From Candidatus Hydrogenedentota bacterium (GTDB lineage Bacteria; Hydrogenedentota; Hydrogenedentia; Hydrogenedentales; JAEUWI01): 64,000 nt of DNA. The translations under genes and the position numbers were made by a program. Positions 27,603 to 36,102 of the stretch are shown in pieces. Below the pieces are notes generated by a model, which was not told where the DNA came from, searched no databases, and saw only the letters and a program-made list of their open reading frames with translations. Within the stretch, counting starts at the first letter, position 1. Each line of letters begins with the position of its first letter. The DNA is taken from assembly GCA_016791475.1 (NCBI GenBank), contig JAEUWI010000043.1:1-64000 (forward strand), read 5' to 3'.

Positions 27603-29654
27603 TCAGTCGATCCACTCCTTAAACTTGTCCTTTGTCTTGCGTAGCAATTCCTTGGGCTTTGATTCCCGCTTGCCCATATCGAGGGCATTGGAATTTTCCA
27701 CAATGGGCGGCAGCCCCGGACGTTCATAAAGATAGAGTACCTGGTCGGCCCGTAGATCATTGGGGTTGCTGATCTGGTTCCAGCGGGCCAGCTCCCCCAC
27801 CGTGACCCCGAAACGGCGCGCAATAATGTCGAGGGTGTCGCCGGCCTGGACCGTGTAGGTCTTGGCAGGTGCGGGTGCTTCCGGCGCGGGGGCGGGCGCG
27901 GGTTCGGGAACCGCCGCCTTGGCGACCTCGACGGGTTCAAGCTCCACTTCCTCGTCGACGGGAGTGGTGGCGGGTTCGTCGAGCGTCACGACGTCGGTTG
28001 CTTCCATGGTGATGGGCAATTCAGCCGCTTCGAGGAGCACGCCCGTGCCCGCCTGGGGTTCCGGCGTCGAAGTGAGCTGGTAGGGGTCCTGAACTACAAC
28101 CGACTCCAGCCCCGGAACGTTTTCTTCCGTCAGCGGGGCCACATCCACAACCGCTTCCGTCGTGGGAGGCACTGCGGGCGGGGTGATGGGTGGCGTAATC
28201 GGCGGGGTAATGGGCGGGGTAACGGGCGCTTCGGGCACAGGAGAACCCTCCACCGCAACGGGCGTCTCGACGGGCGCCTCCGGTGACCCCTGCGGTGCGA
28301 CCTCCGCCACGGCTGGTGCGGGCGCGGGTGCAGGTGCGGGTGTAGCGGGTGCGGGTGCAGATGCAGCAGGAGACGCAGGAGCGGGTGCGGGCAACGGCGC
28401 GGGCTTCGTTGCGGGCTCGGCCTTTCGCGGGGTCGTTTTTGCCGGCTTAGGCACAATGCGATCCGGCTCACTCTCCTCGACCGACTCCGCCGTTTCGGCG
28501 GACTCGCCGCCTGGCACGGCAACCGGGGGTGTATTCTCGGACGCAGGGGCCGAGGCGATGCCATCGAGCATGTCCATCGCCAACTGAATGGGGACGTCGC
28601 GCAGCCCGACAAAGGCCACGGCGGCGATGGCCAGACCGGCAAGCCCGGCGATGGCCCAGCGCGTGAAGGAGCCGTGCCAGGCACTGGCCAGCATGGAGTC
28701 GTCTTCTTCACTCTCTTCGGTCATGTCGCCCGAAGTAATGAGGAAACGAATGGACTCCAGCTCGGCGGCAAACTCGGCGGCCGAGGCAAATCTCAGGTGT
28801 GAATGCTTCTCCAGTGCCCGGTCGATTGCATCGGTCAGCAGCGGATGGGGCACCCGCCCGCTGGGGCGGACGATGGGTTTCGGGTCCAGATTCAGATGCC
28901 CGTTAAATACATCGGTGAGGGAACCTGTGAAGGGCGTCTGCCCGGCCACGAGCTGATAAAGCATCACGCCGACCGCGTAAAGGTCGGAGGCGGGCACCAC
29001 GGGGCCATAGGTGACGGAATCGATCTGCTCCGGCGCCATGTAGAGGGGCGTGCCGGGGCTGCGGCTTCCGGGATGGGTCAGGGTGGTGACATCGGGATCC
29101 TGCTCTTCCTGACGGGCCACACCGAAGTCCATGATCTTGGCGATGTAGCGCCCGGTACCGTCCTGCGTAAGAATAACGTTGGCCGGCTTGATGTCCCGAT
29201 GGATAATCCCCCGGGCGTGGACATGGGCGAGGCCGTGGAGGCACTGGATGGCGATGTCCACGGCGTCGCCGATGGGAAAGCTTCTCGATTCCCGGCGATA
29301 GGCGGCGAGAACGTGATCGAGGGTATCACCATCGACGTACTCCATGACGAGGTGCAACTGATCGCCTTCGTCGTGGAGATCGAAGAGGGTTACGATGTGG
29401 GGATGGGCACCGATGCGGGCGTGGAGCAGACATTCGCGCTTGATGCGGCGCAGGATCTGGCCCGCGGCGGTGCGGTCCGCGCGGATCGACTTGATGGCGA
29501 CGCGCCGGTGAAGCTTGGTGTCTTCGGCCAGATGCACCTCACCCATGGAGCCTGAGCCGAGCTTGCGGATGATCCGATAGCGGTGGCCTGGCAACTTGAG
29601 TGCGGGTGGCGGTGTGGCGCCCCCGACAAAATCTGTATCGATGTGATCCGACAC
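27603..29654 (-). CDS. Transmembrane Ser/Thr protein kinase with LysM domain
   Basis: A 683-residue Hanks-type kinase. The cytoplasmic kinase domain (about 25-305) has the Gly loop GSGSMGEV (33-40), K55, HRD (152-154), DFG (176-178) and MAPEQ. One membrane span follows at 332-351. The outside part is a long Pro/Ala/Glu-rich linker containing a PITPP repeat, then a LysM domain (about 598-645, TYTVQAGDTLDIIARRFGVT). LysM binds peptidoglycan or chitin-like glycans, so the protein is built to sense the cell wall, as PASTA kinases do by other means. The start is a GTG with AAGG seven bases upstream. Confidence 0.9.
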   Translation of the reverse strand: MSDHIDTDFVGGATPPPALKLPGHRYRIIRKLGSGSMGEVHLAEDTKLHRRVAIKSIRADRTAAGQILRRIKRECLLHARIGAHPHIVTLFDLHDEGDQLHLVMEYVDGDTLDHVLAAYRRESRSFPIGDAVDIAIQCLHGLAHVHARGIIHRDIKPANVILTQDGTGRYIAKIMDFGVARQEEQDPDVTTLTHPGSRSPGTPLYMAPEQIDSVTYGPVVPASDLYAVGVMLYQLVAGQTPFTGSLTDVFNGHLNLDPKPIVRPSGRVPHPLLTDAIDRALEKHSHLRFASAAEFAAELESIRFLITSGDMTEESEEDDSMLASAWHGSFTRWAIAGLAGLAIAAVAFVGLRDVPIQLAMDMLDGIASAPASENTPPVAVPGGESAETAESVEESEPDRIVPKPAKTTPRKAEPATKPAPLPAPAPASPAASAPAPATPAPAPAPAPAVAEVAPQGSPEAPVETPVAVEGSPVPEAPVTPPITPPITPPITPPAVPPTTEAVVDVAPLTEENVPGLESVVVQDPYQLTSTPEPQAGTGVLLEAAELPITMEATDVVTLDEPATTPVDEEVELEPVEVAKAAVPEPAPAPAPEAPAPAKTYTVQAGDTLDIIARRFGVTVGELARWNQISNPNDLRADQVLYLYERPGLPPIVENSNALDMGKRESKPKELLRKTKDKFKEWID

Positions 29655-29794: not shown

Positions 29795-30538
29795 TTAGAC
29801 CAGGTTTCTACGGGGCGCCTGCGCGCGTTGCAGGTAACGCATGAGTCCTAACAAGAATATGCCCATGGCCAGGAGGTGGTACCCCGAGAGTCCGCCCACC
29901 AGACGGGGGGTATCCCTGAAATATTCATGGGCAAATCGAAAAATACCATAAAACATGAGATAAAGATGAAATAACTGTCCTTGAAAGCGGCCCAGCCGCC
30001 AGCACGCGAGGGCAAATCCCGCCATTATCAGGTTAAAGGCGCACTCCAGTGGCACGGCGGGCCAGCGCTCCATTCCCGAGCTGTCCGCAAGGGTGTACCA
30101 CGCGGGGGCCATGGGCCGACCGAGGCAACAGCCACTCGCGAGGCACCCCACCCGGCCGAGGGCCAGTCCGAGGGGCGCGACCACGGCAAAGAGATCACCC
30201 GTTGCTTTGTTGTATCCCGTCAGGTGCTTCACAAGTTCCACGGCCCCATAGCCGCCGAGGAATGCGCCGGTGATGCTCTTGCCGGTCAGCCACTGGCGCC
30301 AGACCAGGGCGGGGTGCTCCGCGTAGTCCGGCCAGTGCATCCAGCCCTCCGCAAAGAGATAGGCCGCCTTTGCGCCGAGGAAGGCCCCGCCCAGCGCGGC
30401 GAGGTAGATGTAGACCATGCGGGGATCGCGGGCCTCGGGCTTGCGCCGGAGGAGTTGGCTCCAGATCAGGCTGGAGAGGAGGATCCCGACGATGGCGAGG
30501 ACGGGATAGAGCCAAGCATTAGCCACAGCAGCTTCCAC
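29795..30538 (-). CDS. Lgt-like membrane protein (divergent prolipoprotein diacylglyceryl transferase family)
   Basis: A 247-residue membrane protein with about seven hydrophobic spans and the Lgt fold signature LGRVGCLASGCCLGRP (about 128-142), corresponding to the GRIGNFINGE loop of true Lgt. It lacks the HGG motif with the catalytic His of Lgt (here ITGAFLGGYGAVE), and it has a Cys pair (C137, C138) where Lgt has Asn-Gly. It is therefore probably not the housekeeping lipoprotein enzyme. Its GTG start lies inside the end of the radical SAM gene (20-nt overlap), so the two are made together. A role in moving or modifying a glycerolipid is inference. Confidence 0.75.
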   Translation of the reverse strand: MEAAVANAWLYPVLAIVGILLSSLIWSQLLRRKPEARDPRMVYIYLAALGGAFLGAKAAYLFAEGWMHWPDYAEHPALVWRQWLTGKSITGAFLGGYGAVELVKHLTGYNKATGDLFAVVAPLGLALGRVGCLASGCCLGRPMAPAWYTLADSSGMERWPAVPLECAFNLIMAGFALACWRLGRFQGQLFHLYLMFYGIFRFAHEYFRDTPRLVGGLSGYHLLAMGIFLLGLMRYLQRAQAPRRNLV

Positions 30539-31850
30539 CGCCGCAACAGGCCTCCGCCGGGGCGTTCCACGTGCCGGGGAACTGGGAATAGTAGCGGCAA
30601 AAGGAATCGAGCTGGCCGTCGGGCCGGATCACGTGGGTGCAGCAACGGTCGATGCGATCCTGATCCCAGGTCCACGCGTCCATGAAGGGTTTAATGAAGA
30701 GTCGGAAGGTCTGGGACTCGTCGAGCTCGAAGTTCTTGAGCAGATCGCCCAGGGGCTCGGATTCGCAGCCGCAATGGGCCAGGTCGTCCAGGTTGTAGTT
30801 CATGCGGTTGGCGAGGAAGCTCTGGAACTGGGAGAAGTCGATGAAGTCGCTCACGGCGCGGATGCCTTCGGGCGTCTTGAGGAGATAGCCGATGGTGGCG
30901 CAGTTGGGATCGCCGCAGGGCAGGGGCGTGAAGTCCTCGGCCTTGAGTTGGCCTGCGGATTGATCGATTAGGCCGAGAATCACATCGGCGGTGTTAAGAC
31001 GCTGGGTACGGCCTCGGTCCTCCCCCGCTGTGACCGACTGACGGCCCGAGAAGGTCATGGGCTGAAAAGCGACGCCACGGATATGGGGATATTGCAGGCC
31101 GAAGGCCACGGCCTCCCATACGTGATTCAGGTTGCCGGGCGTGACCGTCATCGCGAGGGTGATGGGCAGTCCGCCCCTCGTCATGGCGCCCGCCACTTCA
31201 ATGGCGCGCTGGCGCGTCTTGCGGAGGTCCGCGCCGCGCAGGGCCTTCTGCTCCGCCTCTTGCGGACCATCAAACTGGAGATAGAGTTGGAGGCCGCCGC
31301 GACGGTACATGGCGTCGAGTTCGCGGGCGAAGTCGGGGTCGTTGGCGAGGCGCACGCCGTTGGTGTTCAGGAGCACGTAGTCGATGCGCGGGTGCGCCTG
31401 CGCCCAGGCGAGGAGGCGGAAGAACTCAGGGTGGAGCGTGGGCTCGCCGCCGGAGAGCTGGAGGATCTCTATCTTGCCCTTCCGCGCGATGACGCCATCG
31501 ACGCGCTGCTGGAAGTCTTCGAAGGTGATGGCGTCGACTTCTTTGGATTGGGGCGAATTGGCGTAGCAGGCCGGACAGGCCAGGTTGCAGCTATCCACGA
31601 TCTCGATGAGGGCCAGGCAGGTGGAAAGGGTCTCAAAGGGGTCGTTGCCGCAGCAGGCTCCGCCGTTGCAGCAGGAGGATGCGCCGCTGGAGACATTGTA
31701 GAAGCGTTCGTCGCTGCTGATGCAGAGGCTGTGATCGCCGTGGGTCGGGCAGGTGCGTTCGAGGTAGACCTTGCCTTCGGATGCGACGACCTGGCCGGGA
31801 ACGGGATCGAGGCAGATGGGGCAGCGGGTGGTGGTTGATTTTAGAATCAT
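30519..31850 (-). CDS. Radical SAM protein, MJ0619/Tes-like, with CC-x4-CC termini
   Basis: A 443-residue radical SAM enzyme. The cluster motif is C88-x3-C92-x2-C95 (CNLACPACYA), followed by LQLSGGEPTLHPEF and VLLNTNGVRL. Before it is a zinc-ribbon-like segment RCPIC...ERTCPTHGDH. A later PLPCGDPNCATIGYL adds Cys ligands. This layout recalls the MJ0619 family, which includes the archaeal tetraether lipid synthase Tes; that is recollection, not a search result. A paired motif CCNGGACCG (60-68) recurs as CCGGGSCCG at the very C-terminus. The ATG at 31850 is preferred to an upstream TTG because it opens just before the first Cys motif. The Lgt-like gene overlaps its end. Confidence 0.8.
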   Translation of the reverse strand: MILKSTTTRCPICLDPVPGQVVASEGKVYLERTCPTHGDHSLCISSDERFYNVSSGASSCCNGGACCGNDPFETLSTCLALIEIVDSCNLACPACYANSPQSKEVDAITFEDFQQRVDGVIARKGKIEILQLSGGEPTLHPEFFRLLAWAQAHPRIDYVLLNTNGVRLANDPDFARELDAMYRRGGLQLYLQFDGPQEAEQKALRGADLRKTRQRAIEVAGAMTRGGLPITLAMTVTPGNLNHVWEAVAFGLQYPHIRGVAFQPMTFSGRQSVTAGEDRGRTQRLNTADVILGLIDQSAGQLKAEDFTPLPCGDPNCATIGYLLKTPEGIRAVSDFIDFSQFQSFLANRMNYNLDDLAHCGCESEPLGDLLKNFELDESQTFRLFIKPFMDAWTWDQDRIDRCCTHVIRPDGQLDSFCRYYSQFPGTWNAPAEACCGGGSCCG

Positions 31851-32060: not shown

Positions 32061-32420
32061 TCAAAAATATGATCCGACTTCATTTGCGAGGCTGACCACC
32101 GCGCAGCCACCAATGGCCAGGAACGTGTTCGACACCAATACGACGAGTGCGAGTGGAATGGCTAACAGCACTCTGTTGAGCGCGCGCTCGCCAAGCTCAC
32201 CGACGAGCAAAACGCTCCACGGATAGAGTATGAGGAAGGACAGGGCAAGGATGCCTTTGAGTTGAGGGCCTGGAAAATCCACGCTGTCCAACCCGGGAAT
32301 CCCCGATTGCCCCAGCCACAGCCCGGTCCCTGCGAGCAAGATGGCCGGACTCAGACCCCACGCGATGAAGAGCGGAAGTCCTATACGCTGAAATGGCTTC
32401 TGTGCCTCAAGGTCGCTCAT
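32061..32420 (-). CDS. Small membrane protein, paralogue of 32495-32893
   Basis: A 119-residue protein with three or four hydrophobic segments (LPLFIAWGLSPAILLAGTGL, GILALSFLILYPWSVLLVG, VLLAIPLALVVLVSNTFLA). It shares its layout with the next gene upstream: an acidic/polar N-terminus, a P-L/F-IAWxLxPA first span, and a final span ending FLAxGxCAV. The two are diverged tandem duplicates. The ATG at 32420 has AGGGAG nine bases upstream; the frame extends upstream to a long but unlikely N-terminus. Function is unknown; it appears to be the last gene of the SGNH hydrolase operon. Confidence 0.75.
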   Translation of the reverse strand: MSDLEAQKPFQRIGLPLFIAWGLSPAILLAGTGLWLGQSGIPGLDSVDFPGPQLKGILALSFLILYPWSVLLVGELGERALNRVLLAIPLALVVLVSNTFLAIGGCAVVSLANEVGSYF

Positions 32421-32494: not shown

Positions 32495-32893
32495 CTACTG
32501 AATATGAAAGGGCGGGTCGATCACGGCGCAGGCGCCGAAAGCCAGGAAGAGGTTTACGGCGCACATGACGCCGAAGATGGGCAACACGGCGATGACTTTG
32601 GCGGGGGTGGTCCAGTTGGCCGGGTAGACCATCCAGATGCTCCAGGCGAAGAGGACGGGGATGCCGCCCATCACGCCGGTGAAGAGGAGGAGGCTTGGAA
32701 AGGCGTCGTCCATTTTGAGTTCCATGCAGAGGCCCGCGAGGATCATGAGCACGGCGGGCGCGAGAGCCCAGGCGATGACCAGGGGGAGGGGACGACGGCT
32801 CGGCACTGAGACCCCCGCTGTTTCGGCCGCTTCGACTGCTTCGGGGGCCTGTTCGGCTTGCGTCTCATTCACTTCGGGTTCTTGATCGCTCAT
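32495..32893 (-). CDS. Small membrane protein with acidic N-terminus
   Basis: A 132-residue protein: a Glu/Ala-rich N-terminal tail (about 1-30) and then four likely membrane spans (LPLVIAWALAPAVLMILAGL, FPSLLLFTGVMGGIPVLFAW, WMVYPANWTTPAKVIAVLPI, MCAVNLFLAFGACAVI). GAGGAG seven bases before the ATG fixes the start, and only four bases separate it from the SGNH hydrolase stop, so they are co-transcribed. It is homologous by eye to the protein at 32061-32420. No known family was recognised. Confidence 0.8.
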   Translation of the reverse strand: MSDQEPEVNETQAEQAPEAVEAAETAGVSVPSRRPLPLVIAWALAPAVLMILAGLCMELKMDDAFPSLLLFTGVMGGIPVLFAWSIWMVYPANWTTPAKVIAVLPIFGVMCAVNLFLAFGACAVIDPPFHIQ

Positions 32894-32897
32894 GGGT

Positions 32898-34229
32898 TCA
32901 CTCCTCGGGGAAAAGGGCCATCAGGGCATCGGCGAAGATGACCTGGCCACGTACATCGGGGTGGTTGATGGAATTGGCGAGCAGGGTCGTGTAGGGGATG
33001 CCCTTGCGCCAGAGACCGCACCAGGTGCGGGAGGCGTCGGCGACAGCGACGCCGTTGGCCTCGGCGAAGGTGTAGAGCCCTTGAACGTAGGGACGCGGAT
33101 CTTCGTCGAACTTGACCGAGGTCATCTTCATCCAGTCGAGGCGGACGAGATGGGGCGTGATAATGACGGGCTCCGCGCCTGCGCCGCGGAGTTTGTCCAT
33201 GATGAGCGTGTAGTGGGTGTTGAGCGCCTCGCCCTGGAGGTAGGCGTCGTTCACCCATTCCATGGTGACCAGATCGGGCTTGCGATCCAGTACGTCACGC
33301 TGAAAGTCGTGCTCTCCGCCCGCGGGCGCTTCGAGGTAGTTCTTGCTGCCGTAACCGGGCCAGGCGGCGGTGTGGAGGGTGATTTCCGACTTGGGATAGC
33401 GCTTGCGCAGTCGCTCCGCGAACTGGTTCTGATACCAGAGGGTGGTGTCCCCCCCCACGCCGCCGCCGGCCGTGCAACTGTCGCCCCAGGCCACGATGGT
33501 GACGGGTTCACCCGCTTCCAGCTTGGCCAGGGTCTTCGGGAGGAATTGCTCGGCCGGGTAGTACTCCGGCGGGGTGGCTTCCACGGCGATCTGCTCGACG
33601 GGAAGGAGGTTTTCCTCGGTGAGGGCGGCGAGGTTGCCGGGATTCCACACGGAGCCGACGTGGTGCTCGCCTTTTGCCAACGCGGGCGGCAGATCCACGC
33701 CGAGGCCGGCGGTGCCCACGACGAGCCGCACCTGGCCCGCTTCATTCATGGCGATGCTGTCGAGGCGCGCGGGGCCGTAGGTGTAATCGATGAGGACCTT
33801 TTCATCCGCAGCGATGGCGCCGAGTTCCAAGCGGCCGATGGAGCCCCAGAGGGGATCGAGGGCGTAGTCCTTGCCCAGCGCGCAGACGGTGCCGTCGATT
33901 TTTCGGACCACGACCGTTTCGGGGCGCAGCAGCCCGGTGGCGGTGCACTCCTGGGTAACGAGGGCCCTGAGGTTTACGCCCTTGGTCCAGCCGCTGGCCT
34001 TTTCATTGAAGAGGGGCAGGGCGTATTCCTCCCCTTTCACACTGATCGGTTCCGGCTCGGGAACGACCAGGCGGACTGGATCGGCCAGGGCGATTTCGAC
34101 GCCGTCGATGGTGACGGAACCGGGCCCAACGTCCACGTGCCAGCCTTCGGCGGCGTGGAGGGGCATGGCGTTGAGTAGGTCGGGGTCTGCGGTGAGAAAC
34201 GAAGCTGCAACGAGTAGCAGAGAGAGCAT
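32898..34229 (-). CDS. Secreted SGNH/GDSL-type esterase
   Basis: A 443-residue exported protein. It begins with a short signal peptide (MLSLLLVAASFLTA), a beta-rich N-terminal domain of about 200 residues, and then an SGNH hydrolase domain. The nucleophile block is IVAWGDSCTAGG, further blocks are LVTMEWVNDAY and the C-terminal NHPDVRG, which supplies the catalytic His. Such enzymes remove acetyl or other acyl groups from carbohydrates or lipids. The ATG at 34229 has AGGA eight bases upstream and starts the signal peptide; the frame is open for 92 codons upstream without meaning. It is divergent from the sialidase-like gene, and both may act on decorated glycans. Confidence 0.83.
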   Translation of the reverse strand: MLSLLLVAASFLTADPDLLNAMPLHAAEGWHVDVGPGSVTIDGVEIALADPVRLVVPEPEPISVKGEEYALPLFNEKASGWTKGVNLRALVTQECTATGLLRPETVVVRKIDGTVCALGKDYALDPLWGSIGRLELGAIAADEKVLIDYTYGPARLDSIAMNEAGQVRLVVGTAGLGVDLPPALAKGEHHVGSVWNPGNLAALTEENLLPVEQIAVEATPPEYYPAEQFLPKTLAKLEAGEPVTIVAWGDSCTAGGGVGGDTTLWYQNQFAERLRKRYPKSEITLHTAAWPGYGSKNYLEAPAGGEHDFQRDVLDRKPDLVTMEWVNDAYLQGEALNTHYTLIMDKLRGAGAEPVIITPHLVRLDWMKMTSVKFDEDPRPYVQGLYTFAEANGVAVADASRTWCGLWRKGIPYTTLLANSINHPDVRGQVIFADALMALFPEE

Positions 34230-34424
34230 GGGGCAATTCCTATGGGTTCGAGTGGCGTAGTATAAGGGACGGCGACGGGCTTTTCGCAATGTTACGGGAC
34301 GGGTGTGGTGGATGATCGGGCCGATCGGGCGGATCGGACCGATCTTAGTGTAGAGAAGTTGCAGCGTGTTGGGCGAATGTCCCATGATCGCGGTTGAACA
34401 ATCACCAACGAGGAAATAGACCCC

Positions 34425-35459
34425 ATGCGAATTCCCGGACCTTCTGTTGCCCTTCTGGCGCAAATCATGATCGCTTTTGCTACCTTCGCCGAGGCCCCCT
34501 TCCACCTCACAGTAGTCCCTTCGGGCCCGGAGAATCCGCGCAACAGCGAGGCGGCGATTATTCCCTTGAAGGATGGTTCACTGCTTCTGGGCTGGTCGGA
34601 GTTTTATGGTGCGAATGGCGAAGACCATGCGCCGGCGCGTCTTTCGGGAAAGGTGTCGAAGGACGGCGGCCGCACCTGGGGGGAGAAATACACGCTGGTG
34701 GAGAATGATGGTGGCTGCAATGTGATGGAGGTGAATTTCCTCCGGAGCACGACTGGCGGGATTCACCTGTTTTACTGTCAGAAGAACAGTGAGAGCACGG
34801 ATTGCCGGGTGATGCTGCGTACTTCGGAAGATGAAGGCAAGACGTGGATCAACCCGGTGCAGATCAGCCCGGACGGCAAGTACACGGGCCTGACGAATGG
34901 GCGTTCCTTTCGCCTGGCTTCGGGGCGCATCGTGCTGGAGGCGTGGGAAGGGAATGACGGCTACTGTTATCTTTCCGACGACGACGGCAAGACCTGGCGC
35001 GAGTCGCAGCGCGTGCGGCCGGGGGATGGCTGCTGGGAGCCGGCGGCCATCGAGTTGAAGGACGGGCGGGTGCTGATGATGATGCGCACGGGCCTGGGCG
35101 GCCAGTATCAGAGCTTTTCCAGCGACGGCGGCGAGACGTGGAGTACGCCGGAGCCGTCGGCCTTGAAGGGCTCGGCCGCGCCGGTGTCCTTGAGTCGGAT
35201 TCCTGGAACGGGCGAGATTCTGGCGGCTTGGAATCACAATCCGGGGCGCGACCTGCGGAATCCCTTTACGGCGGCGATCTCGAAGGACGAAGGCGCGACG
35301 TGGGAGAATTTCAAGAACATCGAAGAGAACGACACGGGCGCGTGGGCCTATCCGGCGGTGACGTGGGTGGGCGACGAGGCGCTGCTGACCTATTTCAGCT
35401 ACGGGAGCGGGTTGTCTCTGGAGTTGAAGATTTTGCCGAAGGGCTGGTTTACCGGGTGA
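34425..35459 (+). CDS. Secreted sialidase-like BNR-repeat protein
   Basis: A 344-residue exported six-bladed propeller protein. A signal peptide (to about FATFAEA) is followed by five Asp boxes with the pattern S-x-D-x-G-x-T-W: SKDGGRTW, SEDEGKTW, SDDDGKTW, SSDGGETW and SKDEGATW. It belongs to the exo-alpha-sialidase superfamily (GH33-like / BNR). The classical sialidase arginine triad cannot be confirmed by eye, so it may act on another glycan. Its start ATG has GAGG upstream, and it is divergently transcribed from the SGNH hydrolase across a 195-bp gap containing short cgggccgatcgggcggatcg repeats. Confidence 0.8.
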   Translation: MRIPGPSVALLAQIMIAFATFAEAPFHLTVVPSGPENPRNSEAAIIPLKDGSLLLGWSEFYGANGEDHAPARLSGKVSKDGGRTWGEKYTLVENDGGCNVMEVNFLRSTTGGIHLFYCQKNSESTDCRVMLRTSEDEGKTWINPVQISPDGKYTGLTNGRSFRLASGRIVLEAWEGNDGYCYLSDDDGKTWRESQRVRPGDGCWEPAAIELKDGRVLMMMRTGLGGQYQSFSSDGGETWSTPEPSALKGSAAPVSLSRIPGTGEILAAWNHNPGRDLRNPFTAAISKDEGATWENFKNIEENDTGAWAYPAVTWVGDEALLTYFSYGSGLSLELKILPKGWFTG

Positions 35460-35545: not shown

Positions 35546-35818
35546 ATGGCAACGTCGATTAAAATCGATGATGATCTCAAGTTCCGCATCCAGCAGCTTG
35601 CGGAACTTCGGCGACGTTCTCCTCACTGGATCATGCAGGAGGCTATTCGTGAATACGTTGCACGTGAAGAAAGCAGGGAAAGCTTTAAACAGGAAGCACT
35701 GGAATCCTGGGCAAGGTACCAGGAAACCGGACTTCACCTGACCGGCGAAGAGGCGCGCGAATGGTTGAGCCGTTGGGGTACCGACGATGAATCGGAAATC
35801 CCGGCGTGCCACGAGTAA
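35546..35818 (+). CDS. Ribbon-helix-helix antitoxin (CopG/ParD-like)
   Basis: A 90-residue protein with an N-terminal RHH domain: a beta strand TSIKIDDDLKFRI, then helix 1 QQLAELRRRSP and helix 2 WIMQEAIREYVAREE. The C-terminal half is acidic and amphipathic and should wrap and neutralise the toxin. Its stop overlaps the toxin start by 13 nt, as usual for such modules. It probably represses its own promoter through the palindrome at 35503-35523. Confidence 0.88.
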   Translation: MATSIKIDDDLKFRIQQLAELRRRSPHWIMQEAIREYVAREESRESFKQEALESWARYQETGLHLTGEEAREWLSRWGTDDESEIPACHE

Positions 35819-36102
35819 TAATCACTGCGGGTGCCGCCCGTGGCTTAGAGCGCTGTCGCCTGTTCCTGGCGGAAAAAAATTCTCAAGCCTCCCGACGGGC
35901 GGGCCAATCCATCGCGCAGAAATTTGAACTTCTTGAGACCACGCCCGAAATCGGAAGACCCTGGGAGGATTTGCCTGAACTGCGCGAACTAATCATCCCC
36001 TTTGGCAGCACCGGTTACGTTGCACTCTATCGCCACGACCGCGGCGCGGATACCGTATATATTCTCGCCTTTCGCCACCAGAAGGAAGCGGGCTATCAGT
36101 GA
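35806..36102 (+). CDS. ParE/RelE-family toxin
   Basis: A 98-residue toxin of the RelE/ParE superfamily. It shows the N-terminal two-helix hairpin (AGAARGLERCRLFLAEKN, ASRRAGQSIAQKFELL), a P-E-I-G-R-P-W element, and the C-terminal sheet ELIIPFGSTGYVALYRH and DTVYILAFRHQKEAGY, matching ParE-type proteins, which attack gyrase. RelE-type ribonuclease activity cannot be excluded from sequence. It starts with GTG inside the antitoxin gene, so translation is coupled. Confidence 0.88.
   Translation: MPRVIITAGAARGLERCRLFLAEKNSQASRRAGQSIAQKFELLETTPEIGRPWEDLPELRELIIPFGSTGYVALYRHDRGADTVYILAFRHQKEAGYQ

Follow-up and report, generated by a model that had tools for sequence, protein, structure and literature searches.

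Two named radical SAM families stand close to the enzyme described here, namely Tes (GDGT-MAS; MJ0619), the archaeal tetraether lipid synthase that couples lipid tails, and TrsS (NCBIfam NF045646), a radical SAM (seleno)protein reportedly defined by Haft and Tolstoy in 2025. GDGT-MAS harbours a rubredoxin motif with the spacing C9x2C12x20C33x2H36 (PMC9433317). A published list comprises 456 bacterial homologues of Tes, and brGDGT synthesis by them is only hypothesised (PMC8941075). The prolipoprotein-modifying enzyme Lgt acts on the periplasmic side of the membrane (PMC4728403). In other Lgts, H103 of the E. coli enzyme is replaced by Tyr, Trp or Phe and N146 or E151 by Cys, and an N146C Lgt from Leptospira is partially functional (PMC13251419). 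Finally, in the MYXO-CTERM/myxosortase system, otherwise unrelated proteins have in common a brief C-terminal motif in which an invariant Cys adjoins a transmembrane helix; an Lgt-type lipidation has been proposed for this motif (PMC11980579).

Here we analysed a locus that brings relatives of these systems together. In the window, which is the whole 64-kb stretch of DNA considered, a first-pass annotation had proposed a two-gene unit made of a radical SAM enzyme gene overlapping the gene for an Lgt-like membrane protein. Both genes were indeed found where described, on the reverse strand. The radical SAM gene (30519-31850) codes for a 443-residue protein from ATG 31850, with TTG 31865 as another possible start. 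The Lgt-like gene (29795-30538) starts with a GTG codon and codes for 247 residues. The overlap is 20 nt from GTG 30538 and 8 nt from the next GTG, at 30526; the two starts are equally plausible in view of orthologues that start through a 4-nt ATGA overlap.

The unit is larger than the proposed pair. Directly upstream of the radical SAM gene, also on the reverse strand, we identified tandem paralogous genes that had been missed and are unannotated, coding for small membrane proteins with Cys-containing C-terminal tails. Small protein 1 (32495-32893) has 132 residues, three predicted transmembrane (TM) helices and the tail NLFLAFGACAVIDPPFHIQ, in which the Cys is residue 122. Small protein 2 (32061-32420) also has three TM segments, with approximately 119 residues counted from ATG 32420, although starts further upstream are possible, and its tail reads NTFLAIGGCAVVSLANEVGSYF. 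Both are candidate substrates of the neighbouring enzymes. An initial screen of the window for such tails matched these two proteins only. Searches against Pfam and NCBIfam assigned them to no family, and for the small proteins as a whole they yielded nothing but noise or weak zinc-ribbon matches. By eye, an ORF for an SGNH/GDSL-type hydrolase (32898-34505, reverse strand) stops a few nucleotides before the gene of small protein 1 and may be co-transcribed with the cassette. Also by eye, a Ser/Thr protein kinase is encoded just downstream of the Lgt-like gene (27603-29654, reverse strand), with a long stretch rich in Pro and Ala and a LysM domain at its C-terminus, and overlapping ORFs for RHH-like and RelE/ParE-like proteins (90 and 98 residues; 35546-36102, forward strand) look like an ordinary toxin-antitoxin pair.

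The radical SAM protein is composed of the Pfam domains Zn_ribbon_HMPTM and Radical_SAM. Its N-terminal rubredoxin/zinc ribbon follows the pattern C10x2C13x20C34x2H37, with all four residues invariant, and the radical SAM core reads C88x3C92x2C95. Cys-rich regions likely to correspond to auxiliary clusters are found at C60/C61/C66, C312/C317, C360/C362 and C403/C404/C418. Its resemblance to the MJ0619/Tes group, noted in the first-pass annotation, was borne out: in the NCBIfam ranking TrsS came first (233 bits), followed by Tes (178.4 bits), compared with 45 bits for the best of the unrelated families. The best sequence match in the PDB is 7tol (Tes/GDGT-MAS; profile E-value 6e-56), which is also the closest structure to the predicted model (pLDDT 82.7) in Foldseek searches (E-value 1e-33, TM score 0.77; 4e-10 for the next fold). 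SkfB, SuiB and other peptide maturases also resemble the core, with lower scores. The protein thus belongs to the Tes-TrsS clan and does not group with a characterised non-lipid family.

With Tes, the enzyme shares the domain order, the fold, the Cx2Cx20Cx2H spacing, the core and a C-terminal RCC.H..FC region. Nevertheless, it remains far below the Tes cut-off (NF045702, 450 bits), and the N-terminal auxiliary cluster of Tes (CxxxCxxC, i.e., C73, C77 and C80, plus a His) gives way to a CC..C(C) motif of variable length. If the numbering is shifted by 20, as the CPIC motif indicates, Met439 of Tes, the labile ligand, aligns with the invariant Lys387 and the conserved Tyr459 with Val407. The association with an Lgt-like partner is another difference. 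TrsS is the closest named family, and TrsS-like proteins of the same phylum, which score up to 309 bits, likewise come with an Lgt-like gene and small proteins with FGxC tails, but the window protein scores well under the TrsS cut-off (490 bits) and its locus lacks a gene for an ICMT-type methyltransferase. A maximum-likelihood tree separated the window clade (support 99/99), the TrsS-like relatives (100/97) and Tes into three groups with very long branches; as Tes enters the tree as a long-branched fragment, the tree serves to document separation alone. We found no in-frame UGA codon between the ATG and the stop of the window gene, and the protein ends with ordinary Cys codons. The TGA codons of two loci (L086 and L087), considered as potential selenocysteine codons, read as normal gene ends. 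Given scores below both cut-offs, a separate clade and the replacement of both Met439 and Tyr459, the enzyme represents, by its sequence, a third lineage within the Tes/TrsS clan, outside both named families.

The loop GRVGCLASGCCLG, on which the assignment of the second protein to the Lgt type was based, is present, and the protein passes the gathering score of Pfam LGT (95.7 bits for a threshold of 24.9), while it misses the score of the Lgt equivalog TIGR00544 (58.4 versus 118.9 bits). The sole significant PDB match of its AlphaFold model (pLDDT 93) is E. coli Lgt (5azb in Foldseek, E-value 9e-8, TM score 0.67; see also 5azc). In a set of 41 members, Y11, R129, C132, C137, C138, G140, E165, Y197, R201, E205 and R208 are invariant; G91 and K104 are invariant residues of the family as well. 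According to profile alignments, Y11, R129, G140, E165, Y197, R201, E205 and R208 correspond to the core residues Y26, R143, G154, E202, Y235, R239, E243 and R246 of E. coli Lgt, and thus Y26, R143, G154 and R239, which are essential in E. coli, are kept and invariant. In contrast, C132, C137 and C138 occupy the positions of N146, E151 and L152, and the chain is shorter than that of E. coli Lgt. The family forms a coherent subfamily with its own invariant motif, GK[ST]xxGAxLGGYxxVExxK, and where E. coli Lgt has HGGL, its members read [TLVMI]G[AG]xLGGYxxVExxK.

The first-pass annotation had emphasised the lack of the HGG motif. This is correct, as HGGL is T90-G-A-F in the window protein, with Thr, Leu, Val, Met or Ile at the H103 position across the family, but it does not serve as evidence of an inactive or odd Lgt. 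Other Lgts carry such replacements, and the window genome codes for two further Lgts that both have a GCC loop, with Phe or Gln at the H103 position, so that neither the missing His nor the Cys residues at positions 146 and 151 are distinctive here. The protein further differs from E. coli Lgt in its own motif and its obligate radical SAM partner.

We collected 75 related loci in one scan of 84,980 species, nearly all in Verrucomicrobiota and Phycisphaerae, with cultured hosts including Chthoniobacter flavus, Roseibacillus persicicus and Luteolibacter marinus. Among the 73 loci with a readable radical SAM ORF, 66 contain the Lgt-like gene, located at most 1.5 kb downstream in 58 cases. Three of the seven others stop at contig ends, and the remaining four have an Lgt-like gene elsewhere in the genome (272-345 bits). 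The pair is thus strictly conserved in dozens of genomes and does not result from a chance juxtaposition. The survey of the window's phylum, which covered 68 genomes of one order, showed the same pattern. The window-type radical SAM protein was found in three genomes (G000, G010 and G033) and the window-type Lgt-like protein (>300 bits) in exactly the same three. Similarly, the five genomes with a TrsS-like enzyme (G016, G022, G026, G049 and G059) are those that encode a second type of Lgt-like protein (96-125 bits). No remaining Lgt-like match exceeded 73 bits, a score in the range of ordinary Lgts. No other neighbour of the pair is conserved to the extent of the small Cys-tailed proteins. 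The only other recurrent one, a small membrane protein without a Cys tail that ends in ..AYLxLYPR, is encoded beside the cassette at nine loci of Verrucomicrobiota (L008:6851-7252 and eight others).

Most related loci contain one to four genes for small Cys-tailed proteins, located on the upstream side of the enzyme genes, between them or behind them. Their common tail is [F/hydrophobic]-x-[G/A/S]-Cys, placed where the last helix presumably reaches the periplasm. To quantify its association with the pair we used codon-scored ORFs, because selecting ORFs by length drops true small genes in GC-rich DNA. A Cys just past the last helix was present in 111 of 130 small TM proteins encoded near the pair versus 12 of 33 encoded far from it (p<1e-7), and a [GAS]C tail in 90/130 versus 5/33 (p<1e-7). 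A scan without gene selection found 66 tails in ~186 kb near the pair, versus 3 in 611 kb farther away on the same strand and none antisense; each of these three lies ~2 kb or less from a pair, just past the cut-off. Outside the locus of G010, a sample of 1.2 Mb (1,046 genes) yielded [GAS]C in one of 51 comparable proteins and the full motif in none of them. After alignment on the Cys, Phe occupies position -3 in 57% and Gly or Ala position -1 in 73% of the tails, and a median of 8 residues follows the Cys. The 111 small proteins fall into about 31 clusters that BLAST does not join, with nothing but the Cys tail in common, which points to substrates recognised through a short motif rather than to a conserved subunit.

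Two natural situations bear on the link between the tail and the enzymes. In the first, a profile built from the small proteins of the window (A1) was run over the 68 genomes; apart from the three that have the pair, it matched only G004 and, at threshold, G027 (E-value 0.0098). Neither enzyme was found in G004, whose assembly is 88% complete, and its small-protein homologue reads ..SVANYFVGIVGLFL.. where others have F-x-x-G-[AG]-C, i.e., the Cys is lost. Conversely, an additional copy in G033, unlinked and bearing a zinc ribbon at its N-terminus, keeps ..VFVFLAGC. In the second situation, the TrsS-like lineage, whose radical SAM protein is only ~30% identical to the window type, has the same triad with an Lgt-like protein and small proteins. 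The tails of small TM proteins at L195, L196 and L198 read FFGMC, LFGAC, FFGTC, FFGVC and IGGTC, with no match to a known family.

In that lineage, the radical SAM gene is followed by a gene for an ICMT-type methyltransferase (G016, G049) or by none (G022, G026), and then by the Lgt-like gene. Such an ICMT/PEMT-like gene sits between the two enzyme genes at L085, L086, L196 and L198 and is absent from L195 and L197, suggesting a methylation step in part of the lineage. One protein, L196:4966-5577 (forward strand), extends ~85 mostly hydrophilic residues beyond FFGAC and could possibly represent an exported domain that is anchored through the Cys, with the usual order inverted.

We examined the likely orientation of the tails. 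The small proteins contain 14.2 Lys and Arg per 100 residues before the last helix versus 6.4 after the Cys, and 19 of the 111 carry zinc-ribbon-like motifs at their N-termini, which are expected in the cytosol. The charge bias and the zinc ribbons suggest that the tail Cys faces the periplasm, where Lgt operates. The order helix, then [hydrophobic]-x-[GA]-C, would resemble a lipobox transposed to the C-terminus. This arrangement differs from the MYXO-CTERM tag, in which the Cys precedes the TM helix and an Arg-rich end and which is cleaved off, whereas here the helix precedes the Cys and a charge-poor tail, no protease gene is conserved and a radical SAM gene is linked. NF058595 ('lipo-invert putative C-terminal anchoring domain') denotes by its name an inverted lipoprotein-like tail, and it gave one weak match over the FFGAC region of an L196 small protein. 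We considered it as a prior description of the tails and rejected it, since its best score among the small proteins scanned was 10.4 bits for a cut-off of 37 and searches of 15 genomes gave background matches alone, with no protein exceeding that cut-off.

We tentatively propose that the locus represents a dedicated tail-lipidation module, a reading we hold to be plausible if somewhat short of probable. The small membrane proteins would insert such that their last helix ends in the periplasm, displaying the lipobox-like F-x-[GA]-C motif as an 'inverted lipobox', in that the helix comes before the Cys, which lies close to the C-terminus. The Lgt-like enzyme, in which the lipid-binding core of Lgt is largely preserved, would install a lipid group on the tail Cys, and the cytosolic, Tes-like radical SAM enzyme would make or remodel the attached lipid, e.g., by coupling acyl tails through C-C bonds or by branching them, either before the transfer or after it. 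The Cys-tailed proteins thus shift the initial proposal of an unusual lipid or lipoprotein modification away from the former and towards an unusual protein lipidation. Gene linkage, exact co-occurrence, motif enrichment, predicted folds and conserved residues are its established parts; from these we infer the topology, the lipidation of the Cys, the status of the small proteins as substrates and the radical SAM step, the latter being the least certain. In a bolder version that we regard as rather unlikely, the module would define a new class of C-terminally lipidated membrane proteins, in which the Lgt paralogue lipidates F-x-G-C and the radical SAM enzyme uses radical chemistry to create a bond in the lipid anchor, e.g., to a second lipid across the membrane.

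Several observations count against lipidation. H103 and N146, both essential in E. coli Lgt, are replaced in the Lgt-like protein. L066 has both enzymes next to a small protein devoid of the tail Cys, and at several loci, e.g., L010, L040 and L059, we detected no small protein. At the loci with an unlinked Lgt-like gene (L029, L048 and L052), the small proteins stay beside the radical SAM gene, so that the radical SAM enzyme may be their primary partner. This last arrangement would fit a RiPP-like scenario, in which the radical SAM enzyme acts directly on the small proteins to form a thioether or C-C crosslink with the tail Cys and the Lgt-like protein is a secondary modifier; the likeness of its core to those of SkfB, SuiB and other maturases is compatible with it as well. 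We find this scenario improbable, however, as the fold is far closer to the lipid enzyme Tes than to peptide maturases, the Cys is predicted to lie across the membrane from the cytosolic radical SAM enzyme, and the latter co-occurs exactly with the Lgt-like protein.

The main alternative to tail lipidation is that the two enzymes build an unusual free membrane lipid, be it membrane-spanning, branched or thioether-containing, with the small proteins as accessory subunits or lipid-presenting scaffolds and not as substrates. It draws on the fact that the closest characterised relative, Tes, couples lipid tails and on the methyltransferase found in part of the TrsS-like lineage. Subunits should keep their sequences, though, whereas the small proteins are dispersed over the 31 or so clusters, in variable numbers per locus, and share the Cys tail alone; together with the unlinked copy in G033 and the loss of the Cys in G004, where the enzymes are missing, this makes the free-lipid explanation somewhat unlikely in our view. 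The abundance of Cys residues in the radical SAM protein, in the Lgt-like loop with its three invariant Cys and in the tails, along with the zinc-ribbon-like N-termini, might instead denote a membrane complex for redox or metal handling. We consider this very unlikely, since the other Lgts of the genome also have GCC loops and the lipid-site residues of Lgt are retained. As for an ordinary, possibly degenerate Lgt paralogue serving normal lipoproteins and incidentally linked to the radical SAM gene, the GCC loop and the loss of H103 are known in other Lgts, but the subfamily is coherent, has its own invariants and occurs only with its radical SAM partner in the 68 genomes. The exact co-occurrence contradicts such an incidental link and two other Lgts already serve the genome, which leaves this explanation hardly probable at all.

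The components of the locus are of known kinds, but their combination and the tail motif appear to be new. Our literature searches yielded no publication that connects Lgt with radical SAM enzymes, although the 2025 article of Haft and Tolstoy that defines TrsS may note part of the neighbourhood. To our knowledge, radical SAM chemistry is unprecedented in protein lipidation. If the tail-lipidation proposal holds, the locus would provide an Lgt paralogue devoted to identifiable substrates of its own and partnered by a radical SAM enzyme, of which we found no description, and it would imply that multi-pass proteins can carry a lipobox-like signal at their C-terminal end. It would also give some of the bacterial relatives of Tes and TrsS a testable role beyond tetraether synthesis.
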